A stretch of DNA of 64,000 bases from an uncultured Cohaesibacter sp. (GTDB lineage Bacteria; Pseudomonadota; Alphaproteobacteria; Rhizobiales; Cohaesibacteraceae), in assembly GCF_963667045.1 (NCBI RefSeq), contig NZ_OY762934.1, forward strand, positions 744,001-808,000, written 5' to 3'. The notes beneath the pieces are model-generated. The model was given only the letters and a program-made list of their open reading frames with translations. It searched no databases and had not been told where the DNA came from. The position numbers and the translations under genes were made by a program. This document shows, one piece after another, positions 35,531-51,262 of this stretch (position 1 is its first letter; every line of letters begins with the position of its first letter).

Positions 35531-36535
35531 TCAGGCTGTGAAAGCCGGGATGATCTTTTCGCCATATTCGGCGATGATCTGTTCTTCCTTGCCGTTGTCG
35601 AGATAGATGTTGAACTGGGTGACACCGGCGTCTTTAAGGACGTTGAGTTTGGCAACCTGCTGCTCTGCCGGGCCCAGCACGCTGAAGCCCTCAATAATTT
35701 CATCGGTAATGAAATCAAGATAGGGATTGTCGCTCTGGCCGTGCTTGGAATAGTCGTAGCCCTTACGATCCTTGATATAGGCGGTCAACGCTGGCGGAAT
35801 ATCGTCCCGCTCGGTGCCGTATTTCTCGACGATGTCAGCAACGTGGTTGCCCACCATGGCCGGGAACCAGCGCGTTGCGGCGATGCATTCTTCCCTGGTG
35901 CCAAAATAGGCAGGCGCAGCCGACATGACCTTGTAGTTGGACATGTCGCGGCCAGCCTTGTTGCCCTCTTCAATGGCAGTGCTGGCGAGCCACTTGACGA
36001 TGCTCGGCTCGGCAATCTGCAGAATGAGGCCATCGCCGACACGCCCAGCAGAGCTCAGCGCCTTGGGACCATAGGCGGCCACCCAGACCGGCAGCTCATA
36101 GCCCTCGGCCCAAGGAAATTTCACCGGCTCGGGGCATTCGCCATACTGGGCCTCGTCGCCACGCACCAGCGCCTTGACCACGTGGGTGAATTCTTCCAGA
36201 CGTTTCAGCGGCGCCGGTTTAAGGCCCATGACCCGCACCGCGCTGTCGCCACGGCCAAGGCCGATGTCAAAGCGTCCTTCGGACTGCTTGGCCAGCGAGC
36301 CGAACATCGAGGCTGCCAGCGACCAGTCGCGGGTGTTCGGGTTGGTCACGCAAGGGCCAAAGCGCATTTTGGTGGTGTGTTCCATGCACATGGCCATGGC
36401 CATGTAGCTCTCCCGCCAGAGAATGTGGCTGTCATAGAACCAGCAGTAGGTGAAGCCGGCATTTTCGGCCTGTCGCACAAGGGCGCGGGCGCGTTTGGGC
36501 TCAACAAAGCCCTTAAAGCAAATAGCGAATTCCAT
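35531..36535 (-). CDS. Luciferase-like (LLM) class F420-dependent oxidoreductase
   Basis: A 334-residue TIM-barrel protein of the bacterial luciferase superfamily, in the branch related to Mer and F420-dependent dehydrogenases. Visible features: MEFAICFKGFVEPKRA at the N-terminus, FYDSHILWRE, GPCVTNPNTRDWSLAASMFGSL, and GRFDIGLGRGDSAVRVMGLKP, typical of F420-binding members. It stands 72 bp downstream of the F420:NADP oxidoreductase gene and is the final gene of the cofactor operon, so F420 use is well supported by context. The substrate is unknown; the upstream pyrimidine-ring hydrolase genes on the same strand make a pyrimidine or hydantoin step plausible. Confidence 0.85.
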   Translation of the reverse strand: MEFAICFKGFVEPKRARALVRQAENAGFTYCWFYDSHILWRESYMAMAMCMEHTTKMRFGPCVTNPNTRDWSLAASMFGSLAKQSEGRFDIGLGRGDSAVRVMGLKPAPLKRLEEFTHVVKALVRGDEAQYGECPEPVKFPWAEGYELPVWVAAYGPKALSSAGRVGDGLILQIAEPSIVKWLASTAIEEGNKAGRDMSNYKVMSAAPAYFGTREECIAATRWFPAMVGNHVADIVEKYGTERDDIPPALTAYIKDRKGYDYSKHGQSDNPYLDFITDEIIEGFSVLGPAEQQVAKLNVLKDAGVTQFNIYLDNGKEEQIIAEYGEKIIPAFTA

Positions 36536-36607
36536 CTCTCTCTCCTGTCCTTGTTCTTCAAGTCTTTTCGGTTGTTCAGTTGGTGACTGTTCTGTCAGTC
36601 ACTTGGA

Positions 36608-37276
36608 TCAATGATCCGGGGCCCAGATCTTCAACCCGGCATGGGTGAACGGCACCTGTTTGGATATGTTGATGCGAATGAGAATCGGGGTAATGGCCTC
36701 TATGCAACGGGCTGCCTCGGCGTCTCCGGCGTTGTAGGCCGTGACCCCGAGTTTCTCGATGAGATCCATGACGGTCTTGCGGGCTGCCAGCGAATTGCCA
36801 CAGACCAGAATGTCACAGTTGATGTCCCATTCGAGGGTCTTCAGTGTTGTTGCAGAGACATTGTGAAGCGCACCAACGACTGGGATTTCCGGCCCCAGCA
36901 GCGCCTGCGCAGCTTCCGTTGCCGAGCCTTCCGGCGGCATCTCAACCTTTTTGGGATCGCCCTCCTTCAGGGGTACGACGATGTCGACGAGGATCTTGCC
37001 CTCAAGATGTGGCTTTAGGGCACAGAGCGTTGCGTTGTGGCCGGAGAACGGCACCGCGAGAATGACGATCTCGTCGGCCATCCGCACAGCCTCCTCGTTG
37101 GCCACGCCGGTGATCGGAGCACAGTCGTCCGCCAGCTGCTGCTGCAACGCCAACCCGATTTCGACGGCGCGTGCTGCATCACGCGAGCCCAGGGCGACCG
37201 GTACACCGGCACGGGCAAATCTCAGCGCCAGCCCCTGTCCTTGCGGTCCTGTACCACCAATGATTGCAATCGTCAT
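36608..37276 (-). CDS. npdG: F420H2:NADP+ oxidoreductase
   Basis: Hydride transfer between F420 and NADP(H). The 222-residue product starts [20 protein letters not shown], a Rossmann loop with the Fno-type GGTGPQG motif, then GSRDAARA for the NADP phosphate. [10 protein letters not shown] and [13 protein letters not shown] are typical of the family. The start overlaps the cofE stop by four bases. In this operon it probably feeds reduced F420 from NADPH to the LLM enzyme. Confidence 0.9.
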
Positions 37277-38043
37277 TTGAACATGTCCTCTTGTTTTCCT
37301 CTCAACAGATCTCCCGCTCGACTTTCGGTAGGGCTCCAGTCGAGCCCACGAAACAGCACGAGGGGTGTTTTGGCGGCCTTCTTGACCACCAGTCCGGAGG
37401 CGGCGGCCAGTTCATCGGCGAAGGCGGCTTCTGTCACCTTCATGGTGCGCCCCCAGGCGTCCGGATTGCCCTGCTCGCGGATGGTGGCGGGCACCCCGGC
37501 GAGCCCTATGGCCACGTTGACCTGAGCGATACGCCAGGGCCTGCCGAAGGTGTCGGTCATCACCACACCGATGCGGCAGCCGAACCGCGCTTCGAGCGCC
37601 TCACGCATGGCGCGAACGCTGGCGTCCGGATCAGGTGGCAATGTCATGGCGGCGTCGGTTTCCGCGATGTTGGATTCATCAACCGCGGCATTGGCCGAGA
37701 TGAACCCCAGCCGGTGGCGGCAAATCATTGTCCCTTCGCTCTGGCCGGGATGGCGGAAGGCTCGTACGACCTCGACGCTTTCCCGCAGCACGATCTCGAC
37801 CTTGCGCGCATCCTTGCCCAACTCTTCGGCATAGCGCAGCGCCTCCGCTGACGGCGTGATGCTGGCGAGAGGATAGATGCAGCCCTCGGCCTTTGAGAAC
37901 ACCTTCTGGGCCACGCAGAGGATATCGCCCTCGACAGGCGCATTGCCGCTCGCCACAAGACAATCACCAAGAATGGCGGCAAGGTCATCGCCTGCCACGA
38001 TATCGGGAACGCCGGAAATGGCCGTGATCGTCAGGCTGGTCAT
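37273..38043 (-). CDS. cofE: Coenzyme F420-0:L-glutamate ligase
   Basis: GTP-dependent addition of L-glutamate to F420-0. The 256-residue protein has the CofE features [13 protein letters not shown] near residue 43, [20 protein letters not shown] near 164 and [17 protein letters not shown]. It has the stand-alone CofE length and lacks the nitroreductase-like C-terminal domain found in mycobacterial FbiB. It abuts cofC (one-base overlap) and npdG (four-base overlap). Confidence 0.92.
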
Positions 38044-38705
38044 TACGCGCCCTCCCCGCCACTGGCGATCGCTGCCGTCTGGACTGCATCGAGATAGCTC
38101 AGATCCGCCATCGTATCGATGTCACGGCGCAGGCTCTTGAGCGGCAGAATGACCGGCATCAAACCAAGATCGGCGGCCTGACCGAAGTGCCGCGAGAAGG
38201 AGTCCGGACCGAAGGAAAATGGTATCGGGCTCGGTAGTGGCAGAACAAGGGCGTTGGTGCCAAGATCCTCTGACGGGCAAACAATGATCGTTCTGGCATC
38301 GAGCGGATAGGACAGCAGGCTAATGATATCCTGCGCCGTTGGATCGGCCAGATCTCCCGGCAGGATGCAGAGCCGCCCGTAACCCTGCTTGAGGGCGCAT
38401 TCAGAGGCAGCCTGCAAGGCATCATTGAGGCCTCTGTCTCCAGCTTCCGGCAGAAAGAGGATGTTCAGCTCCTCGGCCAGCTGCCGGATGACATTGCTGC
38501 TGGATACCACCGCGATATCAATCACATCGATCTGAGCCTTCAAATGATCCGCGCTCGCAAGAGCGGCCTTGATCCGTTCGACCACAGCCTTGAACAGCAT
38601 CAGCGAGAGGCTGGACCGTTCGCCTTCCGAAAGGCCGGATGCCAGCCGCGATTTCGCCCGGGACGGGTCTTTCATCGGGATGAGGATCAGCAGCTTTTCG
38701 GTCAT
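38043..38705 (-). CDS. cofC: F420 side-chain guanylyltransferase
   Basis: Activates a three-carbon phosphoacid (2-phospholactate, PEP or 3-phosphoglycerate depending on the organism) with GTP for F420-0 synthesis. N-terminal LILIPMKDPSRAKSRLA is the nucleotide-binding signature; GDRGLNDALQAA and LCILPGDLADPT near residue 118 are typical. Length 220. Overlaps cofD by four bases upstream. The sequence does not show which phosphoacid is used. Confidence 0.9.
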   Translation of the reverse strand: MTEKLLILIPMKDPSRAKSRLASGLSEGERSSLSLMLFKAVVERIKAALASADHLKAQIDVIDIAVVSSSNVIRQLAEELNILFLPEAGDRGLNDALQAASECALKQGYGRLCILPGDLADPTAQDIISLLSYPLDARTIIVCPSEDLGTNALVLPLPSPIPFSFGPDSFSRHFGQAADLGLMPVILPLKSLRRDIDTMADLSYLDAVQTAAIASGGEGA

Positions 38706-39682
38706 GCGGCAGCTCCGTTGTGGTCTTTATCTGCCGCAAGCGCCAGACCAAGATCGACAACAGCACGGGCCAGCCGCGCCTTGTCGGTGGTGTCCTTCAT
38801 CAGAATGTCGTCGCAATGGGGCCGGATCGACAGGCTGGCAATCTCCTCGGCGAGCAAGCTGTCCTGATGATCGATCAGCAGGGCATCGATCAACCCAACA
38901 TAGTGCGAGGCCACGCCAACGGCATCGGCGCGCATACCGAGTGCCGCCATCATCCTGTCGGCGGGGCCCTTGACGACCTTGCCGGCGATCAGCGGGCTGA
39001 CAGCGATCCTTGGCACGCGAGCCTCTTTCACCGCATCACGGATGCCCTTGACGGCAAGGATCGGCTCGATGCTGACCAGTGGATTGGACGGGGCGATGAC
39101 GAGCAGATCTGCGCTGGCGATGGCCTCCTGCGCTTCCGGGGTCGCCACGGCTGCCTCGATGCCCACCAACTCGAGGGCCTCGATAGTGGGGGCGCATTTC
39201 TCGCGCACGAAATATTCCTGAAAGCTCAGCCAGCCCTTTTCCGTCTTCACCCGGGTCTGCACCCGATCATCGGTCGGCAACAGAATGCGCGGCTTGACAC
39301 CAAAGGCCGCAGCAACATCGGCTGCGATGTCTAAGGGGCGATCACCTTTCGTCCGCCGCATGGTGCGATAGATGTGGAGGCCGAAATCCTTGTCCCCGAG
39401 CGTCATCCATGTGTCCTGCCCTAGCGTCGTCAGGATATCGAGCGCACGGGTGCCCTCGTCGGCCAGCCCCCAGCCCTGCTGGCGGTTGATGCGGCCAGAC
39501 AGGGTGTAGGTCATGGTGTCGATGTCCGGCGACACCCAAAGACCATGGAAGTCGTCATCATCGGCGATATTGCCGATGATCGTCAGCTCCACATCCTCAA
39601 GCGCGGCGAGGCCTTCGGCCATCTTTGCGCCGCCAACCCCTCCGGCCAGCAAGGTAACCTTCCGCTTCTGTGTTTTGCTCAT
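38702..39682 (-). CDS. cofD: 2-phospho-L-lactate transferase
   Basis: Joins the activated phosphoacid to the deazaflavin Fo, giving F420-0 or dehydro-F420-0. The N-terminal LLAGGVGGAKMAEGLA motif, IGNIADDDDFHGLWVSPDIDTMTY and the LGDKDFGLHIYR segment are characteristic, and VIAPSNPLVSIEPILAVKGIRDA is well conserved. 326 residues, as usual. Starts within the cofH stop (ATGA). Confidence 0.94.
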   Translation of the reverse strand: MSKTQKRKVTLLAGGVGGAKMAEGLAALEDVELTIIGNIADDDDFHGLWVSPDIDTMTYTLSGRINRQQGWGLADEGTRALDILTTLGQDTWMTLGDKDFGLHIYRTMRRTKGDRPLDIAADVAAAFGVKPRILLPTDDRVQTRVKTEKGWLSFQEYFVREKCAPTIEALELVGIEAAVATPEAQEAIASADLLVIAPSNPLVSIEPILAVKGIRDAVKEARVPRIAVSPLIAGKVVKGPADRMMAALGMRADAVGVASHYVGLIDALLIDHQDSLLAEEIASLSIRPHCDDILMKDTTDKARLARAVVDLGLALAADKDHNGAAA

Positions 39683-40956
39683 TCGGCAGCCTCCAGCTTG
39701 GCTGCGGTCGCCGGGAACATCTTGAGAAAGTCGAGCGGGTCCTTGCCACCACGGTCGATCAATGGCGCAAGCGGCTGCGGATCATGGTCATCATAGATGT
39801 CGAGAATACGATAGTCGCTCGACCGGCGTGCAGGCATGCGGCCCGAGGCGCGGACGATCTGCGTCAGTTCATAGGCCGTGATCTCCTGCCCATGATCCGC
39901 CCCGGCTGAGCGGGAGATGCTTTCTTCCATCAGCGTGCCGCCCAGATCGTTGGCACCGCGATTGAGCATCGCCATGGCGTGATCGGGGCCGAGCTTGGTC
40001 CAGGAAACCTGGATATTGTCGATCAATCCATGGAGCATGATGCGGGAGACGGCATGCATCTTGTCGATTTCATCGATGCTCGGCCCCTTGCGCACCGTGC
40101 CCGGATTTTCCGTATAAAGCGCCGTTCCGACATGCTGATAGGACAGCGGCACGAATTCGGTAAAGCCACCGGTGTCCTTCTGGATCGAGCGCAACAGATC
40201 GATATGGGCGGCCCAATGCTCCGGGGCATCGATATGACCGTACATGATTGTCGCTGTCGTCCGGATTCCCACCTCATGAGCGGTGCGGATGATCTCGACC
40301 CATTTCTCGGTGCTGAGCTTGTCCTTGGTCAGTTGCTTGCGAATGTCCGTATCGAGGATCTCGGCGGCCGTTCCCGGCATGGTGCCAAGACCGGCGTCCT
40401 TGAGGCCTTGCAGGAAATCGCGGTAGGTCTTCCGCGTCTTGGACGCGCCGTACCAGACCTCGAAGGGTGAGAAGGCGTGCAGGTGCATGTCGGGCAACTC
40501 CGCCTTGATGGCGCGGCAAAGCTCCTCATAGTAACTGCCGGGCAGTTTGGGGTGCAGCCCGCCCTGAATGCATACCTCGGTCGCGCCCCGGTCCCATGCC
40601 TCGTGGCAACGGCGCAGCACCTCGCCCACCGAATGCCAATGGGCATCCTCCTCCTCGGCCCGCTTGGCGAAGTTGCAGAATTTGCAGCCCATGTAGCAGA
40701 CATTGGTGAAGTTGATGTTGCGGTTGACCGTGAAGGTCACCAGATCCCCGTTGGTCCGCTGGCGCAGCTGGTCGGCGACATGATAGATCGCCTGCAAGTC
40801 TGCGGGAGCTTCGGCCTTGAACAGCAACACGGCATCCGCCTGTGAAATCTCACGTCCCTCAAGCGCCTTGTCGAGAATTTTTCGAACAGGAACATCGACA
40901 TTTTGAGCGTCAAAAGCAATGGTATTACCGAATGTTGGTTCTGCTTCGTTGGACAT
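39679..40956 (-). CDS. cofH: Fo synthase subunit 2 (radical SAM)
   Basis: Radical SAM enzyme that joins tyrosine-derived hydroxybenzyl to 5-amino-6-ribitylaminouracil. The Fe-S motif CYMGCKFC is near residue 88, preceded by NRNINFTNV; GGLHPKL, FSPFEVWYGA and the C-terminal GGTLMEESISRSAGA are CofH hallmarks. The ATG at 40956 has GGAGA ten bases upstream; an ATG at 40965 that overlaps the cofG stop is the alternative. CofG and CofH are separate, unlike the fused FbiC of actinobacteria. Confidence 0.94.
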   Translation of the reverse strand: MSNEAEPTFGNTIAFDAQNVDVPVRKILDKALEGREISQADAVLLFKAEAPADLQAIYHVADQLRQRTNGDLVTFTVNRNINFTNVCYMGCKFCNFAKRAEEEDAHWHSVGEVLRRCHEAWDRGATEVCIQGGLHPKLPGSYYEELCRAIKAELPDMHLHAFSPFEVWYGASKTRKTYRDFLQGLKDAGLGTMPGTAAEILDTDIRKQLTKDKLSTEKWVEIIRTAHEVGIRTTATIMYGHIDAPEHWAAHIDLLRSIQKDTGGFTEFVPLSYQHVGTALYTENPGTVRKGPSIDEIDKMHAVSRIMLHGLIDNIQVSWTKLGPDHAMAMLNRGANDLGGTLMEESISRSAGADHGQEITAYELTQIVRASGRMPARRSSDYRILDIYDDHDPQPLAPLIDRGGKDPLDFLKMFPATAAKLEAAE

Positions 40957-40961
40957 GATAA

Positions 40962-42173
40962 TCATTCTCCTTGCGTCAGATGGCGCTGTTCGCTGGCAAG
41001 ACCGTTGCTGGCCGACATACGGGCAACGCGTCCCTGCAGCTGGGGGCTCAGAAATTCAGATCCCGCCCGAAGATAGGCCGGATAGACGGGCAGTCGTTCC
41101 CTGAGTGAGAAGCCCGCCTTGTCACAGCTCGCCGCAAGCGCATCAATCTGCGGCCAGGCGTGCTGGGGGTTGATGAAATCGATGGTGACCGGAGAAATTC
41201 CGCCCCAGTCATTGATGCCAGCATCGAGATAGGCGATATGGCGGGCACTGAGATTGGGCGGCGCCTGCAGGCTGATCTCCGGGGCAAGGATGATGCGCGC
41301 GGCCGCGATGGTGCGTAGCATGTCCTCAAGGCTCGGCTCGGGGTGGTTGGCCATGGCGATATCGGGCTTGGTCTGGAAATTCTGGATGATGACTTCCTGA
41401 ATGTGACCGTGGCGCTTGTGGCTGTCATTGATGGCGTGGAGGGCCTCGATCCGCTCCTCCCACTTTTCGCCAATGCCGATCAGCAGGCCGGTGGTGAATG
41501 GAACCTTGTGCTCCCCTGCCCGTTCCAGCGTGCGCAACCGTTGCAACGGCACCTTGTCCGGACAGGCATGGTGGGCCTCACCCTTGCCGATCAGGCGGCG
41601 GGAGACGGTTTCGAGCATCATGCCCATGGAAACGGAAACGGGACGCAGTTTGGCAAGCTCTTCGTCGCTGAGGGTGCCCGCGTTGACATGGGGCAACATG
41701 GTGGTTTCTTCGAGCACCAGCGCGCACATGACGGCCAGATAATCCGTCATGCTGTGATAGCCAAGCAAAGCCAACGCAGCCCTTGCCCGCTCATAACGCA
41801 GCTCGGGCTTTTCCCCGAGGCTGAACAGCAGTTCCTTGCAGCCCTGAGCCTCGCCCTTGCGGGCCGTGGCAAGAACCTGATCGGGCGACATGATGTTAGC
41901 ATCTGGGTGATCGGGGTGCTTGACGAAGGTGCAATAGGCGCAGGTATCGCGGCACATGTTGGTCAGTGGCACGAAGGCCTTGCGCGAATAGGTCACGGTG
42001 CGGCCCCAACGGGCATCGCGGATGCTACTTGCCCGCGCCATCAGACCCGTCAGATCCGCTTTCTGCAGGTGGCGGGCCTGATCATGGAGCTCACGCGCCC
42101 CGGACGGCAAGCGTGCGGCGCTCTCCGACATGGTGTCGGCGGATCGACTGTTGCGTTCGCTTTCTACCAGCAT
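40962..42173 (-). CDS. cofG: Fo synthase subunit 1 (radical SAM)
   Basis: Radical SAM enzyme completing the deazaflavin ring of Fo. The Fe-S motif CRDTCAYC and TYSRKAFVPLTNM come near residue 65; FSLGEKPELRY, HVNAGTLS, TTGLLIGIGEKWEERIEAL and NDWGGISPVTIDFINP are typical CofG segments. The ATG at 42173 follows GAAGG by seven bases, giving 403 residues; the frame continues open to 42374 but that part is unlike CofG. It is the first gene of the cofactor unit; 244 bp separate it from the importer gene upstream. Confidence 0.92.
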   Translation of the reverse strand: MLVESERNSRSADTMSESAARLPSGARELHDQARHLQKADLTGLMARASSIRDARWGRTVTYSRKAFVPLTNMCRDTCAYCTFVKHPDHPDANIMSPDQVLATARKGEAQGCKELLFSLGEKPELRYERARAALALLGYHSMTDYLAVMCALVLEETTMLPHVNAGTLSDEELAKLRPVSVSMGMMLETVSRRLIGKGEAHHACPDKVPLQRLRTLERAGEHKVPFTTGLLIGIGEKWEERIEALHAINDSHKRHGHIQEVIIQNFQTKPDIAMANHPEPSLEDMLRTIAAARIILAPEISLQAPPNLSARHIAYLDAGINDWGGISPVTIDFINPQHAWPQIDALAASCDKAGFSLRERLPVYPAYLRAGSEFLSPQLQGRVARMSASNGLASEQRHLTQGE

Positions 42174-42375
42174 CCTGTTGCCTTCAGCCGTTGTGAAAAT
42201 ATCTGCCCTTCGGGGCCGACTTTTGCGCATTCGATGGCATACCCAACGGGAAATCGGCGCAAAGGGACCCTGTTCGCGCCAAACGGTGTTTGCGCGGTGC
42301 AAGACATTTTCGTGAATTGTTCGGTTACCTTGGGGTTGGCTCCGCCGAACGAGCCGGCGGGCCAGGGTCGTCATC

Positions 42376-42403
42376 CCGCACCCGAAGCGCTGTCCGGGTG
42401 CGG
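42376..42403 (-). other. Hairpin between importer and cofG
   Basis: CCGCACCCG (42376-42384) pairs with CGGGTGCGG (42395-42403), 15 bp after the binding-protein stop on the minus strand. There is no T-run, so it may stabilise the binding-protein mRNA or stop only part of transcription into the F420 genes. Confidence 0.55.
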
Positions 42404-42417
42404 AGAATGGGACGGGC

Positions 42418-43419
42418 CTATTTCAGGGCCAAATCGGTGATCTTGTGGGTCCAGGCGCCTTCCGGCTCCTTGGAAATGACAGGAGCGGAACCGCCGCTCA
42501 TCAGCGTCTTGACGGTACGCTCATAGTCGGCCGTATCCAGAGCGCCATTGGAACCGGCGGTCAGCTTTGCAACTTCAGCCATCATGCGCTTCTGGTGCTT
42601 TTCGGTCTGGGCCCCGGTTTCGTCATATTCAAGCACGATGTCTGCGGCTTCATCCGGGTTGGCTTCAGCGTATTTCCAGCCTTTCATGGACGCACGGACG
42701 AAGCGGACCAGTTTATCGACTTCTTTCTCGTCAGCCAGCTTGTCTTCCAGCACATAGAGGCCGTCCTCCAGCGTAGCCACGCCCTGATCTTCATATTTGA
42801 AGGTGATCAGATCGTCAGCAGAGATACCGGCGTCAATAACCTGCCAATATTCGTTGTAGGTCATGGTGGAGATGCAGGCAGCCTGCTTCTGAAGCAGCGG
42901 ATCAACATTGAAACCCTGCTTGAGAACGGTCACGCCCTTGTCGCCGCCTTCGGTCGGAATACCAAGAATGCTCATCCAGCTCAGAAACGGATATTCGTTG
43001 CCGAAGAACCAGACTCCAAGGGTCTTGCCGAGGAAGTCTTCAGGCGATTTGACGCCACTTTCCTTGAGGCACGTCAGCATCATGCCCGAGGACTTGTAAG
43101 GCTGGGCGATATTGACCAGCGGCAGGCCCTTTTCACGGGCGGCCAGCGCCGAAGGCATCCAGTCGACAACCACATCCGCGCCACCACCGGCCAGGATCTG
43201 GGTCGGGGCAATATCCGGACCGCCCGGCTTGATGGTGACATTGAGGTCTTCAGCCTCGTAATAGCCCTTTTCCAGAGCAACATAATAGCCGGCGAACTGG
43301 GCCTGCGTCACCCATTTCAGCTGAAGGGTAAAGTCATCTGCCGCGTTGGCTCCGGTGGCTGCAAAGATCGAGGCAGCTGCACATGCGCCAATCGCAATTT
43401 TCTTGAAAGTGTCTCTCAT
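42418..43419 (-). CDS. NMT1/THI5-like ABC transporter binding protein
   Basis: Periplasmic binding protein with the NMT1/THI5 fold, known for pyrimidines, thiamine precursors and sulfonates. A signal peptide ends near residue 26 (TGANAADD). LQLKWVTQAQFAGYYVALEKGYYEAEDLNVTI at the N-terminus (in two overlapping parts) is the classic THI5-like beginning. Position among dihydropyrimidinase pathway genes suggests a pyrimidine or hydantoin ligand. It follows the two permease and ATPase genes in the same direction. Confidence 0.88.
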   Translation of the reverse strand: MRDTFKKIAIGACAAASIFAATGANAADDFTLQLKWVTQAQFAGYYVALEKGYYEAEDLNVTIKPGGPDIAPTQILAGGGADVVVDWMPSALAAREKGLPLVNIAQPYKSSGMMLTCLKESGVKSPEDFLGKTLGVWFFGNEYPFLSWMSILGIPTEGGDKGVTVLKQGFNVDPLLQKQAACISTMTYNEYWQVIDAGISADDLITFKYEDQGVATLEDGLYVLEDKLADEKEVDKLVRFVRASMKGWKYAEANPDEAADIVLEYDETGAQTEKHQKRMMAEVAKLTAGSNGALDTADYERTVKTLMSGGSAPVISKEPEGAWTHKITDLALK

Positions 43420-43499
43420 CTTCTATTCCCTTTGGTAGTCCGTAAAGGATTATGGTTAAGGTGTTGCTTTGTTTTCTTTTGGTTATTGAATGGGGTCTT

Positions 43500-44345
43500 T
43501 TAGCCCCTTTGCGAGGGGTGCCAGAAGGTCACCCCTTTTTCGATTGCGGCCACCGCCCCGTAAAACAGGGAGCCGGCAATAGCCGCAACCGTGATTTCCG
43601 CCCAGACCATGTCGAGCCCAAGCTTGCCGACCTCGGTGGAGATGCGGAAGCCCATGCCGACGATGGGAGAGCCAAAGAACTCGGCGACGATCGCACCGAT
43701 CAGCGCCGACGTGGTTGAAATCTTGAGGCCGTTGAAAATGAACGGCATCGCGGCAGGCAACCGCAGCTTGAGCAAGGTGTCGGAATAGCTCGCCGCATAG
43801 GTCTTCATCAGATCGCGCTGCATGTGATCGGTATCAGCCAATCCCTGCACGCAATTGACCAGCATCGGAAAGAAAACCATCACCACGACAACGGCGGCCT
43901 TGGAATGCCAGTCGAAGCCGAACCACATCACGAGGATCGGGGCGATGCCGACGATGGGCAGCGCGGCAACGAAGTTGCCAACCGGCAGCAGGCCCAATTG
44001 CAGGAAGGGCACGCGGTCGATGAGGATCGCCGTCAGAAACGCCGCGCCGCAGCCGATGATATAGCCACTGAGCGCGCCCTTGGCGAAGGTCTGCAGGAAG
44101 TCGAGCCAGAGGATATTGGTGGAAGCGGCAAATCGCGTTGCGATGGCGGATGGCGGCGGCAGGATGACACCGGGAATGTTTAGCCCGCGCACCAGCAGCT
44201 CCCAGGCAACAAGGATTGTCACCCCGAAAATGAAGGGCACCAGAAAGCGCACCAGCAGCGTTTTGTGGGCCTTCGACCGGGAGAGTTTGACGTTGACCCA
44301 CGAGGCCACAATCCAGACGACAAGTGCAGCAAGAACAAGGGTCAT
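43500..44345 (-). CDS. ABC transporter permease (NitT/TauT type) 2
   Basis: Inner-membrane subunit of 281 residues with about six helices and an EAA-type loop around RDLMKTYAASYSDTLLKLRLPAAMPFIF. The ATG at 44345 overlaps the preceding permease stop (ATGA), so the longer frame to 44444 is rejected. Together with its neighbour it forms the importer's membrane channel. Confidence 0.88.
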   Translation of the reverse strand: MTLVLAALVVWIVASWVNVKLSRSKAHKTLLVRFLVPFIFGVTILVAWELLVRGLNIPGVILPPPSAIATRFAASTNILWLDFLQTFAKGALSGYIIGCGAAFLTAILIDRVPFLQLGLLPVGNFVAALPIVGIAPILVMWFGFDWHSKAAVVVVMVFFPMLVNCVQGLADTDHMQRDLMKTYAASYSDTLLKLRLPAAMPFIFNGLKISTTSALIGAIVAEFFGSPIVGMGFRISTEVGKLGLDMVWAEITVAAIAGSLFYGAVAAIEKGVTFWHPSQRG

Positions 44346-45205
44346 CGCACCATCCCCATTTTCTTCAGAACAGATTTCTCGGCAAGCCCCACCAGTGCCA
44401 CGAGGCCAGCAGCCAACAGGGCGGCAGCAAAGAGAGCGGCCCACATCTGGATCGTCTGGCCATAGTAGGAACCGGTCAGCAGCCGGGCGCCCAACCCGCG
44501 AATGGCGCCGGTTGGCAGCTCGCCGACGATGGTGCCGACGAGCGAGGCGGCAATGCCCACCTTCATTGAGGTGAAGAGATAGGGCACGGAGGATGGCAGG
44601 CGCAGCTTGTAGAAGGCGTCACTTCTTGAGGCGTTGTAGGTTTTCAAGAGATCCAACTGCATGTGATCGGGTGCTCTCAGACCCTTCACCATACCGACCA
44701 GAACCGGGAAGAAGCTCAAATAGGCCGAAATGATCGCCTTGGGGATCAGCCCCTGAATGCCGACCGAGTTCAGGACCACGATGATCATTGGCGCAATGGC
44801 GAGAATGGGAATGGTCTGGGAAGCAATGGCCCATGGCATGACGCTCATGTCCATGGCGCGAATATAGATGATGCCGACAGACAGCAGGATTCCGAGCAGT
44901 GTGCCGACCAGGAAGCCCAGCAGGGTCGCCTCAAGCGTGATCCAGCCGTGAAAGATCAGCGAGCGCTTGGAGGTGACCTTCTTCATCACCGTGCTGTCCC
45001 ACAGTTCCGCCGCCACCTGATGCGGCGCAGGTAGAACCGGGCGCTCCTGCGCCCAGGTGTCCTTGACCAGATCGGAAAAGGATAGCTCCACCTTGGCGCG
45101 GGCCGCCTGGTCATAGGCCCATTTGGCATTCATCCTGATAGCAGCGCCATACCAGAGCACCACAATCACCAGCACGACCGTGCAAACGGCAAAGAGCTTA
45201 CGCAT
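44342..45205 (-). CDS. ABC transporter permease (NitT/TauT type) 1
   Basis: Permease of 287 residues, with an N-terminal helix, a periplasmic segment (about 30-75), and the EAA-type loop LDLLKTYNASRSDAFYKLRL then PSSVPYLF. The ATG at 45205 follows CGGAG by six bases and lies inside the ATPase 3' end; an ATG at 45223 is possible. Paralogous to the next gene. Confidence 0.87.
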   Translation of the reverse strand: MRKLFAVCTVVLVIVVLWYGAAIRMNAKWAYDQAARAKVELSFSDLVKDTWAQERPVLPAPHQVAAELWDSTVMKKVTSKRSLIFHGWITLEATLLGFLVGTLLGILLSVGIIYIRAMDMSVMPWAIASQTIPILAIAPMIIVVLNSVGIQGLIPKAIISAYLSFFPVLVGMVKGLRAPDHMQLDLLKTYNASRSDAFYKLRLPSSVPYLFTSMKVGIAASLVGTIVGELPTGAIRGLGARLLTGSYYGQTIQMWAALFAAALLAAGLVALVGLAEKSVLKKMGMVR

Positions 45206-45983
45206 TGTCTGCTCCGTCGCCATGCCCGGCCCTCAGGCCCTCGCGAACACGATGGGCGATATCGATGAAGTCCTTGCTGTCACGAATGGACAGCGGGCGT
45301 TCCTTGGGCAGTGTGCTGTCGATCACGTCGGTGATGCAACCCGGACGCGGGCTCATGACCACAATCTTGGTGGAGAGATAGACGGCCTCGGGGATGGAAT
45401 GGGTAACGAAGCCGATGGTCTTGCCGGTGCTGGACCAGAGTTTCAAAAGCTGTTCGTTGAGGTGGTCGCGGACGATTTCATCGAGCGCCCCGAAAGGCTC
45501 ATCCATCAGCAGGATATCGGCATCAAACGACAGTGCCCGGGCGATCGACGCTCGCTGCTGCATGCCGCCCGACAGCTGCCATGGAAACTTGTTGCCAAAG
45601 CCTTCCAGATCCACCAGCTTGAGCACCCGTTCGACGCGCTTCTTCTGCTCGGCCTTGGTGAAGCCCATGATCTCCAGTGGCAGCTTGATGTTGCGGGCAA
45701 TGGTCCGCCACGGATAGAGCCCGGCAGCCTGAAAGACATAGCCATAGGCACGATCCTTGCGCGCCAGCTCTGGCGTGGTTCCATTGACCCTCAACTCGCC
45801 CGATGTGGGATTTTCCAAGGCAGCGATGGCGCGCAGAAAGGTCGTCTTGCCGCAGCCGGACGGGCCGATGAAACTGACAAAGTCGCCCTTGTCGATCTGA
45901 AGGTTGACATCCTTGAGCGCATGGACCGGTCCATCATTGGTCTGAAACGTCAGACAGAGGTCCTTGGCAGAAATAACTTTCAT
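45198..45983 (-). CDS. ABC transporter ATPase (NitT/TauT type)
   Basis: ATPase of the SsuB/TauB/ThiZ group, 261 residues. Walker A GPSGCGKTT near 40, VFQAAGLYPWRTI, signature LSGGMQQRASIARAL and Walker B ILLMDEPFGALDEIVRD are intact. The ATG at 45983 overlaps the stop of the unknown gene upstream by four bases; no strong ribosome site is seen, so translation probably relies on coupling to that gene. Confidence 0.9.
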   Translation of the reverse strand: MKVISAKDLCLTFQTNDGPVHALKDVNLQIDKGDFVSFIGPSGCGKTTFLRAIAALENPTSGELRVNGTTPELARKDRAYGYVFQAAGLYPWRTIARNIKLPLEIMGFTKAEQKKRVERVLKLVDLEGFGNKFPWQLSGGMQQRASIARALSFDADILLMDEPFGALDEIVRDHLNEQLLKLWSSTGKTIGFVTHSIPEAVYLSTKIVVMSPRPGCITDVIDSTLPKERPLSIRDSKDFIDIAHRVREGLRAGHGDGADNA

Positions 45984-46522
45984 GACGGCCAACTTTCAAG
46001 ATGTGCTGCAGCATCTGCATGTGTAATCACCCTCTGAAAGCACGCTATTCTCTTGTCCGACAAGGCCTCCTCGCCACAGAACAACACTGTCGTCCAATCG
46101 TCATGAGCATTGAGCGTGCGGCGAGCCGAATGCGTTTCGGAGAAGCATTTTGCACGCAAAGGATAGCCTTCGGGCTGACCGAATTCGAACTTCTCACCGC
46201 TTCTCTTAAACTCGACGTGAATTGCGAGTGTCCTATTGATAGAGACATTTCGGAGGAAAAAGATCGCATCAGATTCCAAGCTTTTGCTTCCTTCGATCCG
46301 GCACGTACAGTTTTTGTCTTTGCCACACCAATAGTTCGCCCAAAAGGGTTGGATGGTCGACTTCCGAACCTTGCGTTGCTCTTCGTGCAAAGGGAACGCT
46401 CCTGAGTATTTTTCGGAAACTGCGGTCCCGGCTATCATCCAGTCTCGAATCTCACTGGATCTAAAAAAGCCTTGTGCGATTGCATCGAGGTAAGGCTGTG
46501 CTTTAACTGAGTATCTGGCCAT
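45980..46522 (-). CDS. Unknown protein embedded in the pyrimidine operon
   Basis: A 180-residue protein of no recognised family. Its ATG overlaps the dihydropyrimidinase stop by one base (TAATG) and its stop overlaps the ABC ATPase start by four (ATGA), so it is translated with both. Base composition is clearly lower in GC than its neighbours. Cysteines cluster at WCGKDKNCTC near residue 65. The segment ESDAIFFLRN, then LAIHVEFKRSGEKFEF, has the spacing of a PD-(D/E)XK nuclease core (Asp, then Glu-x-Lys), but this is only a pattern match. No signal peptide or membrane helix is seen. Confidence 0.7.
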   Translation of the reverse strand: MARYSVKAQPYLDAIAQGFFRSSEIRDWMIAGTAVSEKYSGAFPLHEEQRKVRKSTIQPFWANYWCGKDKNCTCRIEGSKSLESDAIFFLRNVSINRTLAIHVEFKRSGEKFEFGQPEGYPLRAKCFSETHSARRTLNAHDDWTTVLFCGEEALSDKRIACFQRVITHADAAAHLESWPS

Positions 46523-47976
46523 TATACACCACTTGCCGGAATGCCAGCGCGGACGATCGGGCGTGGCGAGACCAGTTCCTTCCAGGTAGACAGTGCCTTG
46601 TTGACCGCGCCATAGGGCTTGCGCGCCACGAACTGGCCGTGCCCCTCTTCGGTCTTCAGCGTGCTTTCCTCGACCACGACCTTGCCTCGCGACAGGGTGA
46701 AGCGCGGCAGACCCGTGACTTCCTTGCCCTCAAAGACGCTATAGTCGATGGAGGAGACCTGGGTTGCTGCGGAAATGGTCTTCTTGAGTTTCGGATCCCA
46801 GACGACGATGTCGGCGTCCGCCCCTACAAGAATGGCCCCCTTCTTCGGGTATATGTTGAGGATCTTGGCGATGTTGGTGGAGGTAACCGCCACGAACTCG
46901 TTCATCGTCAACCGGCCAGTGCCGACGCCATAGGTCCAGAGCATCGGCAGCCGGTCTTCAAGACCGCCGGTGCCGTTCGGGATCTTGGTGAAATCACCGA
47001 CGCCATAGCGCTTCTGGTCGGTCGTGAAGGCGCAATGGTCGGTCGCCACGCAGGAAAGTGAACCTGCCTGAAGGCCAGCCCAGAGGCTGTCCTGATGCAT
47101 CTTGTTGCGGAACGGCGGGCTCATGACGCGGCGGGCGGCGTGATCCCAGTCCTTGTCGAAATATTCGCTTTCATCAAGGGTCAGATGCTGGATCAGCGGC
47201 TCGCCATAGACGCGCATGCCCTTCTGACGGGCACGACGGATGGCCTCATGGGCCTGTTCGCAGGATGTATGGACCACATAGAGCGGAACGCCTGCCATAT
47301 CGGCCAGCATGATGGCTCGGTTGGTGGCTTCCCCTTCCACTTCCGGCGGGCGGGAATAGGCGTGTGCTTCCGGGCCGGTGTTACCCTCGGACAGCAGCTT
47401 GGCAGACATGGAGGCAACCACGTCGCCATTCTCTGCGTGGACAAGCGGCATGGCGCCCAGTTCGGCACAGCGCTGGAAGGAGGCAAACAGCTCGTCGTCG
47501 TTGACCATCAACGAGCCCTTGTAGGCGAGGAAATGCTTGAAGGTGTTGATGCCCTTCTCGCGAACGACCGTTTCCATTTCCTCGAACACCTGCTTGTCCC
47601 ACCATGTGATGGCCATGTGGAAGGAATAGTCGCAGGTGGCGCGGGTCGACTTGTTGTCCCAACGCATCAGGGCGTCCAGCAGACTCTGGCCAGGATCGGG
47701 CAGACAGAAGTCGACCACCATCGTCGTGCCGCCCGCCACCGCAGCGCGGGTGCCTGAAGAAAAGTCATCTGCCGAATAGGTGCCCATGAAAGGCATTTCC
47801 AGATGCACATGGGGATCGATGCCACCCGGCATGACATAGCAGCCGGTGGCGTCCAGAATTTCACCGCCGGAGAGATCGGGGCCGATTTCGGTGATGACAC
47901 CATCCTCGATTTTCACATCGGCTTCATAAGTCAGATCGGCGGTGACAACAGTTCCGCCCTTAATCACTTTGCTCAT
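46522..47976 (-). CDS. hydA: Dihydropyrimidinase / D-hydantoinase
   Basis: Opens the ring of dihydrouracil, dihydrothymine or 5-substituted hydantoins. The binuclear zinc site is complete: His56 and His58 in DPHVHLEMP, carbamylated Lys153 in FLAYKG, His180 in HAENGD, His236 in VVHTSCE and Asp313 in TDHCAF. Length 484. The ATG at 47976 follows AAGGGAAC; the frame runs open to 48327 but overlaps no conserved sequence there. It follows the carbamoylase gene on the same strand, so together they give a beta-amino acid. Confidence 0.95.
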   Translation of the reverse strand: MSKVIKGGTVVTADLTYEADVKIEDGVITEIGPDLSGGEILDATGCYVMPGGIDPHVHLEMPFMGTYSADDFSSGTRAAVAGGTTMVVDFCLPDPGQSLLDALMRWDNKSTRATCDYSFHMAITWWDKQVFEEMETVVREKGINTFKHFLAYKGSLMVNDDELFASFQRCAELGAMPLVHAENGDVVASMSAKLLSEGNTGPEAHAYSRPPEVEGEATNRAIMLADMAGVPLYVVHTSCEQAHEAIRRARQKGMRVYGEPLIQHLTLDESEYFDKDWDHAARRVMSPPFRNKMHQDSLWAGLQAGSLSCVATDHCAFTTDQKRYGVGDFTKIPNGTGGLEDRLPMLWTYGVGTGRLTMNEFVAVTSTNIAKILNIYPKKGAILVGADADIVVWDPKLKKTISAATQVSSIDYSVFEGKEVTGLPRFTLSRGKVVVEESTLKTEEGHGQFVARKPYGAVNKALSTWKELVSPRPIVRAGIPASGV

Positions 47977-48220
47977 GTTACTGTTCCCTTCAAGTTTCAT
48001 GCCAAGAAGCGGGCACCGGACACAGTTCGGGCGTTCCCGGTAAGCGAACGATCTGCCTCTTGCCTTGGTGTCTTGAGCTCCGACCAAAGCGGTTGCCTCT
48101 GGCGGAGTTTTTGTCTTGTCTGGTAATTGCCGGGTCGGATTCCACCGGGCTTTGGCCCTGTTCATGGATCGGGAATCCGTGCCCCAGATCTTGTCGCCGT
48201 TCGGCGTCTTGTCCTGATCG

Positions 48221-49462
48221 CTACTCGACGATCTCGGCCGTTTCCAGAACCGCCTGCAGCAGCACGTCAGCCCCGGCGGTGGCCCATTCCTTGGAAATTT
48301 CCTCGGCTTCGTTGTGCGAGAGGCCATCGACGCACGGACACATGATCATCGTGGCCGGAGCGACCTTTGCGGCCCAGCATGCGTCATGGCCAGCGCCGGA
48401 GACGATGTCCATATGCGAGTAGCCAAGATCGATGGCGGCATTGCGCACGCGCTCGACAAGCGTCGGCTCGAAGGTCACCGGATCGAACTGGCCGACCTGC
48501 TCCACCGAGCAGCCGACACCGAGCTCTTCACAGATGACCGCCGCCTTTTCCTTGATGGCATCGCGCATGCCGTTGAGCTTGTCGATGTCGACGGTGCGGA
48601 TGTCGACCGTGAAGACCACCGTCCCGGGCAGCACGTTGCGCGAGTTCGGCGAGAAGGTCACCTGCCCGACACCGCCAACTGCGTTTGGCTGGGCTGCCAT
48701 GGTCACGTCCTGCACCATTTCGAAGATGCGGGCCATGGCCAGACCGGCGTTGACGCGCATGGCCATCGGAGTGGAGCCGGTATGGGCTTCCTTGCCGGTC
48801 AGCGTGAACTCCAGCCACCACAGCCCCTGACAATGGGTCACGACACCGATTTCCTTGTTTTCGGCTTCAAGGATCGGGCCCTGCTCGATGTGATATTCGA
48901 AATAGGCGTGCATCTTACGAGCGCCAACCTCTTCGTCCCCAACCCAGTTGATGCGCTTGAGCTCGTCACCGTAGGTCTTGCCCTCAAGGTCCTTGCGGCC
49001 ATAGGCATAGTCAAGCGAATGGACACCAGCAAAGACGCCGGAGGCCAGCATCGGCGGCGAGAAGCGGCCGCCCTCTTCGTTGGCCCAGTTGGTCACGACA
49101 ATCGGGTGTTTGGTCTTGATGTCGGCATCATTGAGCATGCGCACCAGTTCCAGAGCCGAAAGCACACCGAGCACGCCGTCATATTTGCCACCGGTTGGCT
49201 GGGTATCAAGGTGCGAACCGACATAGACCGGCAGTGCATCGGGGTCGGTCCCCGGACGGGTCATGAACATTGAGCCCATCTTGTCGACGCCCATGGCAAG
49301 GCCTGCGTCTTCGCACCATTTCTGGAACAGGGCGCGCCCCTCGGCATCCTCATCGGTCAGGGTCTGTCGATTATTGCCACCGGCAACGCCCGGCCCGATT
49401 TTTGCCATGTCCATCAGAGACTGCCAAAGACGGTCTCCATCCACTCGCAGATTCTTCTTCAT
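48221..49462 (-). CDS. N-carbamoyl-beta-alanine amidohydrolase (HyuC/allantoate family)
   Basis: M20-family zinc amidase that releases CO2 and NH3 from N-carbamoyl-beta-alanine or N-carbamoyl-amino acids. Ligand motifs: GSHLDTQPTGGKYDG with His84 and Asp95, NEEGGRF with the Glu129/Glu130 pair, YHIEQGP with His191, and GLSHNEAE near the C-terminus. 413 residues, usual for the family. Next to hydA, the beta-alanine form is favoured over the hydantoin L-carbamoylase form, which is very similar. Confidence 0.92.
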   Translation of the reverse strand: MKKNLRVDGDRLWQSLMDMAKIGPGVAGGNNRQTLTDEDAEGRALFQKWCEDAGLAMGVDKMGSMFMTRPGTDPDALPVYVGSHLDTQPTGGKYDGVLGVLSALELVRMLNDADIKTKHPIVVTNWANEEGGRFSPPMLASGVFAGVHSLDYAYGRKDLEGKTYGDELKRINWVGDEEVGARKMHAYFEYHIEQGPILEAENKEIGVVTHCQGLWWLEFTLTGKEAHTGSTPMAMRVNAGLAMARIFEMVQDVTMAAQPNAVGGVGQVTFSPNSRNVLPGTVVFTVDIRTVDIDKLNGMRDAIKEKAAVICEELGVGCSVEQVGQFDPVTFEPTLVERVRNAAIDLGYSHMDIVSGAGHDACWAAKVAPATMIMCPCVDGLSHNEAEEISKEWATAGADVLLQAVLETAEIVE

Positions 49463-49601
49463 GATCCGGTTCCCCTATCATATTCATCTGTCATAGGTCG
49501 TTTGCCCAAAGGGCTATTCTGGAAGTGCACCCGCCGGTTTTCCGGTCTGTCAGTGCTGAAATTCATTCTTCACATCAGGCGCGCAAGCCCACGCCGCTCC
49601 C

Positions 49602-51092
49602 CTAACTCGGGAAGGTAAACACAGCGCCCTCGGACAGTCCCTCGGGCCAGCGCGTCGTGGTGGTCTTCAATTTGGTATAGAAATGAATGGCTTCCGGCCC
49701 ATAGATGCCGTGAGAGCCGAAACTTGAGCGTTTCCAGCCGCCGAAGGAATGGAAGGCCACGGGCACCGGAATGGGCACGTTGATGCCGACCATACCGACC
49801 TCGATCTGGCTGGAGAATTTGCGGGCAGCGTCGCCGTTGCGCGTGAAGATCGCGGTGCCATTGCCATACTCGTGGACATTGATCAGCTCGACCGCGCTCT
49901 CGAAACTCTGAGGCGCCATGACAGACAGCACCGGCCCGAAAATTTCGGTCTTGTAGATGTCCATTTCCGGGGTCACCTTGTCAAACAGGGTGCCGCCGAC
50001 AAAATAGCCTCCCTCATAGCCCTGCAAGGTAAAGGCGCGACCGTCAACCACCAGATCTGCCCCCTGCTCAACGCCGCTGTCGATCAGCCCGCCAATGCGC
50101 TTCTTGGCGTCGGCGGTAATGACAGGGCCCATTTCGGCGGTCTCGTCACTGGAAGGGCCGATCCTCAGGGCCTCTACCTTTGGCTTGAGACTGGAGATGA
50201 GCCGCGTTGCTGTTTCCTCCCCGATGGGGACGGCAACCGAGACAGCCATGCACCGCTCACCGGCCGAGCCGAAAGCAGCGCCCATCAAGGCGTCGGCGGC
50301 CTGATCCATATCGGCATCGGGCATGATGATCATGTGGTTCTTGGCTCCGCCCAGAGCCTGCACGCGCTTGGCACTGTCGGTGCCACGGCGGTAGACATAT
50401 TCGGCAATCGGGGTCGATCCGACAAAGCTCACAGCCTTGACATCGGGATGATCGAGCAGGCAGTCAACGGCACTCTTGTCGCCATGCACCACGTTGATCA
50501 CGCCCTTGGGTAAACCGGCTTCCATCAGCAATTCGCAAACGAAATTGGCCGCAGACGGATCCCGTTCGGAAGGTTTCAACACGAAGGTGTTGCCACAGGC
50601 AATCGCCATCGGGAACATCCACATCGGCACCATGGCCGGGAAGTTGAAGGGGGTGATACCCGCCACGACACCAAGCGGCTGGCGCTCGGAATGGGTATCG
50701 ATGCCGGAGCCGACGTTGCGAGAGAACTCGCCCTTCAGCAGATGCGGAGCACCACAGGCGAACTCGATCACCTCAAGGGCACGGGCCACCTCGCCAAGGG
50801 CATCATCGTGGGTCTTGCCATGTTCGCGGCTGATCTCGCGGGCAATGTCGTCTGCCCGTTCGCGCACCAGCGCCTGATAGGCAAACATGACGCGGGCCCG
50901 CTTGGCCGGAGGCGTTGCCGCCCAGCCCGGCAGAGCCGCCTTTGCCGCAGCAACCGCCGCGTTGACCTCCTCATCACTCGACAGGCCCAGCGTAGCAATC
51001 TGTTCGCCTGTAGCCGGGTTGAAAATGGCCGCTGTGCGCCCGGATACTGAAGCGACTTTCTTTCCCTTGATGATATTGTCGACGTGATACAT
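49602..51092 (-). CDS. mmsA: (Methyl)malonate-semialdehyde dehydrogenase, CoA-acylating
   Basis: Converts malonate semialdehyde to acetyl-CoA and methylmalonate semialdehyde to propionyl-CoA. Features: GVVAGITPFNFPAMVPMWMF, the FVGSTPIAEYVY NAD site, catalytic Cys in GSAGERCMAVSV, and GWKRSSFGSHGIYGPEAI, which marks the MmsA branch. 496 residues. The ATG at 51092 follows GAGGGG; a GTG one codon upstream is possible. It would finish degradation of beta-alanine (from uracil) and 3-aminoisobutyrate (from thymine). No matching aminotransferase lies in this operon. Confidence 0.94.
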   Translation of the reverse strand: MYHVDNIIKGKKVASVSGRTAAIFNPATGEQIATLGLSSDEEVNAAVAAAKAALPGWAATPPAKRARVMFAYQALVRERADDIAREISREHGKTHDDALGEVARALEVIEFACGAPHLLKGEFSRNVGSGIDTHSERQPLGVVAGITPFNFPAMVPMWMFPMAIACGNTFVLKPSERDPSAANFVCELLMEAGLPKGVINVVHGDKSAVDCLLDHPDVKAVSFVGSTPIAEYVYRRGTDSAKRVQALGGAKNHMIIMPDADMDQAADALMGAAFGSAGERCMAVSVAVPIGEETATRLISSLKPKVEALRIGPSSDETAEMGPVITADAKKRIGGLIDSGVEQGADLVVDGRAFTLQGYEGGYFVGGTLFDKVTPEMDIYKTEIFGPVLSVMAPQSFESAVELINVHEYGNGTAIFTRNGDAARKFSSQIEVGMVGINVPIPVPVAFHSFGGWKRSSFGSHGIYGPEAIHFYTKLKTTTTRWPEGLSEGAVFTFPS

Positions 51093-51225
51093 CACGCTTC
51101 CCCTCGCCTCTGTTTGCGCCCCAGTTCCCCTTGGGTGCTATCTGCCGCGTGCGGTTTGGCCGGTGTATTTTTTGCGATTTTTTTTGCCAAACGCCTCTTT
51201 CGTGGTAAGAACGCTTGCACTATCC

Positions 51226-51262
51226 GCACGATCGGTCAATATTTTTTCTGCACGATCGGTCA
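51226..51262. promoter_or_regulatory. Direct-repeat operator for the TetR/RutR-like regulator
   Basis: GCACGATCGGTCA occurs exactly twice, at 51226-51238 and 51250-51262, with a 24-bp period, so both lie on nearly the same helix face. The reverse complement contains TTGACC, the half-site of E. coli RutR (TTGACCA...TGGTCAA). It lies 134 bp before mmsA and 177 bp before the regulator gene; the rest of the 51093-51439 gap is AT-rich with no further clear element. Confidence 0.6.

Follow-up and report, generated by a model that had tools for sequence, protein, structure and literature searches.

Why does an operon for pyrimidine breakdown carry a complete set of genes for making the cofactor F420, which is best known from methane-producing microbes? 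The question is raised by a cluster at positions 35,531 to 51,092 of the window, the 64,000-nucleotide stretch of an uncultured Cohaesibacter sp. analysed here, which belongs to a genome of 5.24 Mb in a single contig. Alongside the genes for a dihydropyrimidinase, an amidase, a semialdehyde dehydrogenase and an importer, the cluster encodes an F420:NADP oxidoreductase (FNO) and an oxidoreductase of the LLM class. We consider it likely that the operon serves reductive pyrimidine catabolism and that its first step is catalysed by the F420H2-dependent LLM enzyme instead of PreTA, the usual NAD(P)H dihydropyrimidine dehydrogenase. The features of the locus, with the profile matches behind them, are:

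35531..36535, minus strand: LLM-class oxidoreductase of NCBIfam family TIGR03842 (495 bits, cut-off 295), the proposed F420H2-dependent uracil/thymine reductase
36608..37276, minus strand: F420:NADP oxidoreductase (npdG/FNO), TIGR01915 (188 bits, cut-off 150)
37273..38043, minus strand: cofE, TIGR01916, above cut-off
38043..38705, minus strand: cofC, TIGR03552, above cut-off
38702..39682, minus strand: cofD, TIGR01819, above cut-off
39679..40965, minus strand: cofH, TIGR03551, above cut-off
40962..42374, minus strand: cofG, TIGR03550, above cut-off
42418..43419, minus strand: NMT1/THI5-type ABC substrate-binding protein, PF09084
43500..44444, minus strand: ABC permease, from profile search and comparison with preTA stretches
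44342..45223, minus strand: second ABC permease, on the same grounds
45198..45992, minus strand: ABC ATPase, on the same grounds
46522..47976, minus strand: hydA, dihydropyrimidinase, TIGR02033 (601 bits, cut-off 393)
48221..49462, minus strand: predicted amaB-type N-carbamoyl-beta-alanine amidohydrolase, NF006769; TIGR01879 (379 bits, cut-off 204)
49602..51095, minus strand: mmsA, (methyl)malonate-semialdehyde dehydrogenase, TIGR01722 (695 bits, cut-off 448)
51226..51262, between tetR and mmsA: two direct copies of GCACGATCGGTCA, at 51226 and 51250, a candidate TetR operator
51440..52066, plus strand: divergent RutR-like TetR regulator, TIGR03613 (194 bits, below the cut-off of 368), with a PF08362 C-terminal domain

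All genes named in the first-pass annotation, which was made from the sequence alone, are present on a single strand in the order it gave, and the core genes score over curated cut-offs. Its content and order stand, and two starts are revised: homology places that of hydA at 47976 rather than 48327, and that of cofG probably lies downstream of the listed position, as matches to the CofG profile start only at residues 119–128. The F420 biosynthesis set is complete at the locus, with cofC, D, E, G and H all found by profile search. AmaB belongs to the hydantoinase/carbamoylase family, and its exact substrate is a prediction.

The same annotation held that PreTA and RutA-F are missing. Genome-wide, the single match to PF01180 is a quinone-type PyrD (TIGR01036 360 bits, cut-off 200), and E. 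coli PreA, our positive control, matches PF01180 at 131 bits. Because the only PF01180 gene is PyrD and this model does detect PreA, the genome is without PreA by this search, the short PreA-like form described below included, and the claim for PreTA is borne out beyond the window. PF00296 likewise has a single match, the LLM gene of the operon. As this gene belongs to TIGR03842, RutA is absent too, and no RutA family is among the 20 NCBIfam families found in the profile scan; this part of the claim holds for RutA, and rutB-F were not searched for. The genome has no other LLM enzyme that could consume F420, and F420-using proteins of other folds are possible; PF04075 had no match in the genome and likewise none in the controls.

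In the proposed route, FNO would pass a hydride from NADPH to F420, and the LLM enzyme would transfer it from the resulting F420H2 to C5=C6 of uracil or thymine, most probably onto C6 with protonation at C5. HydA would then open the dihydropyrimidine ring, AmaB would release beta-alanine or beta-aminoisobutyrate, a transaminase would yield the semialdehyde, and MmsA would form acetyl- or propionyl-CoA. The cofGHDCE genes, which share this strand and this presumably cotranscribed cluster, would supply F420 under the RutR-like regulator. Within the pathway only ring reduction is a reductive step, and only its enzyme is missing, which makes it the natural place for FNO and LLM.

To compare this locus with preTA operons, we drew gene maps around LLM and PreA loci from tblastn. 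PreA was sought with model NF006183, chosen with E. coli PreA, at a threshold of 1e-60 in 86 LLM-positive genomes: those of the best 80 of 396 LLM loci (50, then 30), a set that leans to near relatives, and six more. The nearest named relative among these 80 loci is Cohaesibacter haloalkalitolerans, whose LLM is 99% identical. In all 17 LLM-positive genomes where PreA was found, the order is preT-preA, tetR, amaB, hydA, and an ABC ATPase follows hydA in 14 of the 17 preTA stretches of 16 kb; two of the other three, from Limimaricola, are long enough yet lack the ATPase, and one stops near hydA. The window's genes are close to those of the preTA operons, with identities of 68–73% for amaB (17 operons), 61–80% for hydA, 78–85% for the ATPase (14 of 17) and 77–81% for the substrate-binding protein in the 7 of 17 stretches that gave a match. 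With amaB, hydA and the importer shared, the window therefore holds the same type of catabolic operon, from which preTA, carried by the related operon of Rhodobacteraceae-type genomes, is gone and in which cof, FNO and LLM are present. In a HydA tree of the 37 sequences (of 60) left after removal at 97% identity, the window HydA falls within a clade (support 98/99) that holds most preTA-linked HydA and mixes them with HydA of LLM-positive genomes lacking PreA. This mixture implies that similar hydrolases work with either first enzyme, and repeated swaps of that enzyme seem to have taken place over a single kind of downstream operon.

The distribution of the two enzymes across genomes points the same way. 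Our profile sample comprised 236 genomes from the family of Paracoccus denitrificans, which share ancestry, so that the counts are uncorrected for relatedness; PreA was counted at a threshold of 1e-90 with at most seven candidates scored per genome. LLM occurs in 12 of these genomes, PreA in 199 and HydA in 219. PreA is found in 2 of the 12 LLM-positive and 197 of the 224 LLM-negative genomes (Fisher p = 1.5e-7); among HydA-positive genomes, which include all 12 with LLM, the figures are 2/12 and 195/207 (p = 6.8e-10). The 12 LLM-positive genomes were rechecked with all candidates scored, 6 + 2 by the PreA model and 4 by PF01180. A strict rule of PreA or LLM was rejected, as two of the 12 hold both. 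The LLM trait is rare: 5 of 250 genomes in an even sample of the class and 3 of 397 in a sample of the phylum pass the LLM cut-off, the window's own genome included in each.

Operator sites link the F420 genes to pyrimidine control in many relatives. We take TTGACCANNTGGTCAA to be the consensus of the RutR-type palindrome. A search of the open-licence literature found nothing on it, and the closest site of this type between E. coli rutA and rutR has three mismatches, as do two intragenic sites nearby, which leaves the consensus unconfirmed there. It occurs exactly at amaB in several preTA operons, and the related TTKACCANNTGGTMAA lies within two mismatches upstream of amaB in 16 of 17 (the exception being locus L136). 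Upstream of cofG, TTKACCANNTGGTMAA is found with at most two mismatches in 34 of 61 distinct loci and with at most one in 19, and 27 have no site within two mismatches; the 61 remain after removal of two duplicate loci and identical upstream regions. Among 1830 random windows the corresponding rates are 1.3% and 0.4%, and none of 60 permuted palindromes, which carry the same K/M ambiguity, occurs at more than two of the 61 loci. As that ambiguity was set after seeing the sites of two more distant Pseudomonadota, the count of 34 is partly post hoc.

The site is also present where the F420 genes stand apart from hydA. In 11 of 11 hand-picked loci with no hydA in reach it lies at cofG within two mismatches, and in 10 within one; these are nine of the 12 loci with full flanks and no pathway gene (described below; L054 was omitted and two have no cofG in reach), plus L026 and L150. 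In three PreA-negative genomes with unlinked operons (G395, G272 and G518), the cof-LLM operon and the hydA operon each have such a site. The shared operator ties F420 synthesis and LLM to the type of control used for pyrimidine breakdown, independently of adjacency. A scan of the whole window for TTGACCANNTGGTCAA with up to three mismatches gave 11 matches against 2.2 expected. Those in the operon region (36174, 45063, 49081 and 51920) are all intragenic and none falls in the mmsA-tetR gap, so an exact RutR-type palindrome was rejected as the window's own operator. The 12-mer CACGATCGGTCA recurs upstream of amaB at loci L076 and L161, whose TetR proteins are 66% identical to that of the window.

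Does the LLM protein use F420? NCBIfam lists TIGR03842 as a hypothetical equivalog. Its solved relatives are mainly F420 enzymes: of ten matches in a PDB sequence search, the first eight are such proteins (Mer, hydroxymycolic acid dehydrogenase and F420 alcohol dehydrogenase), and one of the remaining two is a luciferase-type monooxygenase. Mer is the closest solved sequence (26% identity, E 1.8e-21). An AlphaFold2 model (predicted local distance difference test, pLDDT, 85.8) likewise gave F420 enzymes as its first 19 Foldseek matches, with Mer on top (template-modelling score about 0.78) and flavin monooxygenases after them. This kinship in sequence and modelled fold suggests that the enzyme uses F420 rather than FMN. 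It is distinct from Mer itself, with which it would share the F420-dependent LLM-type barrel: it scores far under the Mer equivalog cut-offs (124 against 276 and 121 against 349 bits). An alignment of 14 TIGR03842 members, with Streptomyces among them, shows conservation of the VTNP, GRGDS and VGNH blocks and of the YGP.AL motif, and position 6, which we take to correspond to the E6 named in the title of a Mer structure entry, is variable and not acidic. CofH is present in 19 of 20 LLM-positive genomes tested.

Linkage of these genes extends well beyond Cohaesibacter. Of the best 80 loci, 43 are flanked on either side by 9 kb or more. These contain cof genes in 39 cases, FNO in 41, hydA in 29, at least one pathway gene in 31 and preA in none; the 12 others gave no pathway gene within 10 kb at the thresholds applied. 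Chance adjacency was rejected on the 39 loci with cof genes and the 29 with hydA near LLM, and the expectation that most LLM homologues would be linked to hydA agrees with the latter count. Two Leisingera plasmids (176 and 250 kb) carry an NCS1 symporter gene, hydA, amaB, an aminotransferase gene, pntB and pntA, with cofGHDCE-npdG-LLM-TetR divergent from them. PntAB could supply NADPH for FNO, so that an electron route from NADH through NADPH to F420H2 would be encoded with the pathway. Eight contigs (L038-L042, L056, L068 and L073) start about 400–600 bp upstream of cofG, near the start of pntA in the complete Leisingera plasmids; a second copy of pntAB may have broken these assemblies. The Paracoccus denitrificans locus (L044) has NCS1-hydA-amaB beside cof-FNO-LLM-TetR, and the PreA model found no PreA in that genome. 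On a plasmid of Paracoccus alcaliphilus, cof-FNO-LLM is accompanied by an ABC importer, with hydA absent from the vicinity.

More distant versions of the cluster recur as well. Two further Pseudomonadota from the phylum sample, taken for gammaproteobacteria by their tree position beside a Cellvibrionales record (L074, itself amaB-tetR-cof-FNO-LLM), encode an LLM 71% identical to the window's with hydA, NCS1, amaB, tetR-cof-FNO-LLM and mmsA-like genes, and one of them an aminotransferase too; PreA was found in neither genome. A Streptomyces plasmid (L144:2013-8963) carries genes for a CN-hydrolase, a class-III aminotransferase and HydA (TIGR02033, 554 bits), followed about 65 bp on by an LLM gene whose product is 45% identical to the window's and reaches 562 bits on TIGR03842, above the window's 495. 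There the CN-hydrolase would be a different type of beta-ureidopropionase, in what may be an actinobacterial version of the system. Two alphaproteobacterial genomes hold two divergent LLM relatives each (L087, L088, L156 and L157; 53–56% identical), some near cof or FNO genes, which suggests paralogues with other substrates.

Several observations weigh against the replacement of PreTA by the LLM enzyme. PreA is present in 17 of the 86 LLM-positive genomes (17 of 50 in the first set, 0 of 36 in the second); the genomes in the Fisher tests share ancestry; and the window's own promoter lacks a RutR-type site, the best having four mismatches. For mureidomycin, passages of PMC10714638 describe a putative F420/FMN oxidoreductase that is genetically needed for uracil C5=C6 reduction and whose in vitro assays failed, missing coenzymes being one suspected reason. 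This enzyme (SSGG-03002/NpsU, of mureidomycin/napsamycin) would perform the same reduction in antibiotic biosynthesis, and we liken it to the window LLM by function, not sequence. Predicted alphaproteobacterial F420 producers also encode Fgd, according to sections of a 2021 review (PMC8498797), so that some of these bacteria may also employ F420 elsewhere.

A further point on the same side is that, of the 22 HydA-positive genomes in the sample without full PreA, 12 lack LLM too. Seven HydA stretches from these show six complete amaB-hydA-ABC operons without preA and one 3.9-kb contig. A PF01180 recheck of the 12 gave strong matches at the level of PyrD and, in seven, one weaker match. We rejected the view that the weaker matches are unrelated proteins: all seven proved to be short PreA-like proteins, missed at the 1e-90 threshold and scoring 280–299 bits on NF006183 (cut-off 335). 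They match profile positions 1–334 of 422 and leave the last 88 unmatched, which is the region of the Fe-S domain in E. coli PreA. Their genes (L188-L194, in G309, G496, G512, G456, G522, G498 and G410) are not beside hydA at the listed coordinates, and none was found in the 86 LLM-positive genomes at 1e-60, a threshold able to reveal them. They may represent a third type of first enzyme that lacks the ferredoxin domain. Counting the short form as PreA, as searched in these 12 genomes only, gives 2/12 against 204/224 (p = 1.4e-8), or 2/12 against 202/207 among HydA-positive genomes (p = 3.3e-12), and so strengthens the anti-correlation. It leaves 15 HydA-positive genomes without any type of PreA, ten with LLM and five with neither enzyme. 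In one such genome (G452), where neither type of PreA nor LLM was found, the operon at L173 is a complete amaB-hydA-ABC set with an exact RutR-type operator; its first enzyme may be of another kind, or the operon may serve imported dihydropyrimidines.

The presence of PreA in 17 LLM-positive genomes leaves room for a different or wider LLM substrate. The enzyme might be the F420H2-dependent reductase of a pathway whose natural substrate is another ring that HydA opens, such as a 5-substituted uracil, a cytosine derivative, a hydantoin-like compound or a xenobiotic pyrimidine, with uracil and thymine minor; we regard this as unlikely. Differing substrates would be expected to leave a second, distinct hydA-amaB set beside cof-LLM, as several genomes with both enzymes have: G274 and G281 hold two HydA each, and at L049 and L065 the hydA-amaB pair beside cof-LLM differs from the genome's own preTA-linked set. 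Such genomes seem to have acquired a second pathway in complete form. Against another ring, the HydA, AmaB and importer that accompany LLM in PreA-negative genomes are closely related to the preTA-linked set, and many PreA-negative loci share the operator of preTA type. Moreover, 15 of the 17 LLM sequences from PreA-positive genomes form one supported clade with two Leisingera plasmid sequences (100/98), and a single acquisition may lie behind those 15 cases. One record titled Nocardioides marinus DP1N28-1 (L038, JAHVJD010000013.1) has an LLM inside the Leisingera clade and a preTA operon of Rhodobacteraceae type in its genome; the assembly is probably mislabelled.

Another possibility is that cof-FNO-LLM has a separate F420 function, in redox balance or detoxification, and merely adjoins pyrimidine genes. 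That 12 loci with full flanks show no pathway gene would suit this; the operator at cofG in all 11 picked loci without hydA in reach, the anti-correlation of LLM with PreA, and linkage that recurs in alphaproteobacteria, the two more distant Pseudomonadota and the Streptomyces plasmid make it highly improbable. RutA is itself an LLM protein that acts on uracil, and the Rut pathway shares a RutR-like regulator with the window, so the LLM enzyme could be imagined as a RutA-like flavin monooxygenase opening the uracil ring with O2. This we find scarcely credible: the RutA product would need no HydA, which here lies downstream, the nearest solved structures use F420 rather than FMN and O2, and FNO and F420 synthesis sit within the operon, which would serve reduction and not oxygenation. 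A RutA-type oxygenase was rejected on family profiles, the single LLM gene and the fold neighbours. The replacement of PreTA by a chain from NADPH through F420H2 to the LLM enzyme, as the first-pass annotation proposed, is supported by every comparative test, and from these we infer the reaction itself.

How does the system relate to known ones? With the reductive pyrimidine pathway (PreTA or PydA, HydA/PydB, PydC) it shares the dihydropyrimidinase, amidase, semialdehyde dehydrogenase, NMT1 importer, RutR-like regulator and, in many relatives, the operator; it differs in having F420 synthesis, FNO and LLM instead of PreTA. Picrate and dinitrophenol hydride transferases are paired with NpdG. 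They resemble the window in combining FNO with an LLM enzyme that would transfer hydride to an electron-poor six-membered ring used as carbon and nitrogen source; here the substrate would be a natural nucleobase, not a nitroaromatic, and HydA and AmaB are linked. Hydride addition to picrate by an F420H2-dependent LLM enzyme is described in passages of PMC8498797. Electron donors of the first enzyme are described in parts of PMC7332683 as NADPH, NADH and ferredoxin, all with PydA/PreA-type enzymes. The nearest published idea, in the portions of the literature retrieved, concerns uric acid clusters of Chloroflexota, where a putative F420 enzyme of the luciferase family is proposed to replace a reductase resembling dihydropyrimidine dehydrogenase (PMC12507026). 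Like the window LLM, it would act before hydantoinase-type ring opening; it belongs to a purine pathway, is putative, and is likened to the LLM by description in the retrieved text, not by sequence. That proposal slightly lowers the surprise of an F420 enzyme at this step.

In the retrieved text of the open-licence literature we found no description of an F420-dependent reductase in pyrimidine catabolism, and in that literature no paper joining F420-dependent enzymes with dihydropyrimidinase and none on TIGR03842/CPS_4043. In the available text of the 2021 review (PMC8498797), no word starts with uracil or hydantoin, and the passages on pyrimidines concern photolyase, FO synthesis and the title of a reference. 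It is fairly probable that F420 serves many marine alphaproteobacteria, and some other Pseudomonadota, as a catabolic cofactor made mainly for pyrimidine reduction, with the cof genes in a pyrimidine-controlled operon or regulon replacing the iron-sulfur flavoenzyme PreTA, and in Cohaesibacter serving one LLM only. If so, TIGR03842, an uncharacterised family, would gain a function, an F420-dependent dihydropyrimidine dehydrogenase would be an undescribed Enzyme Commission (EC) activity and an alternative to the iron-sulfur enzyme, and a nucleobase would be a natural substrate of F420H2 in primary metabolism. A physiological role would also follow for F420 in organisms such as Paracoccus denitrificans, where trace F420 was reported (Ney et al. 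2017, as given in passages of PMC8498797). The gene set at L044 and the absence of PreA there predict this role and, by extension, that F420 would be scarce without pyrimidines. The finding thus gives F420 a possible role in alphaproteobacteria that can be tested.

Two neighbouring features stand outside this system. A 180-residue open reading frame at 45980-46522, listed in the first-pass annotation as an unknown gene, has no Pfam or NCBIfam match and occupies the roughly 550 bp exactly from the hydA stop to the ABC ATPase start. As the closest Cohaesibacter has only about 130 bp without similarity at this position, the frame appears to lie outside the conserved system and could be a recent insertion. 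Directly downstream of the TetR gene, on the opposite strand, a gene resembling indolepyruvate/phenylpyruvate decarboxylase spans 52085-53779.

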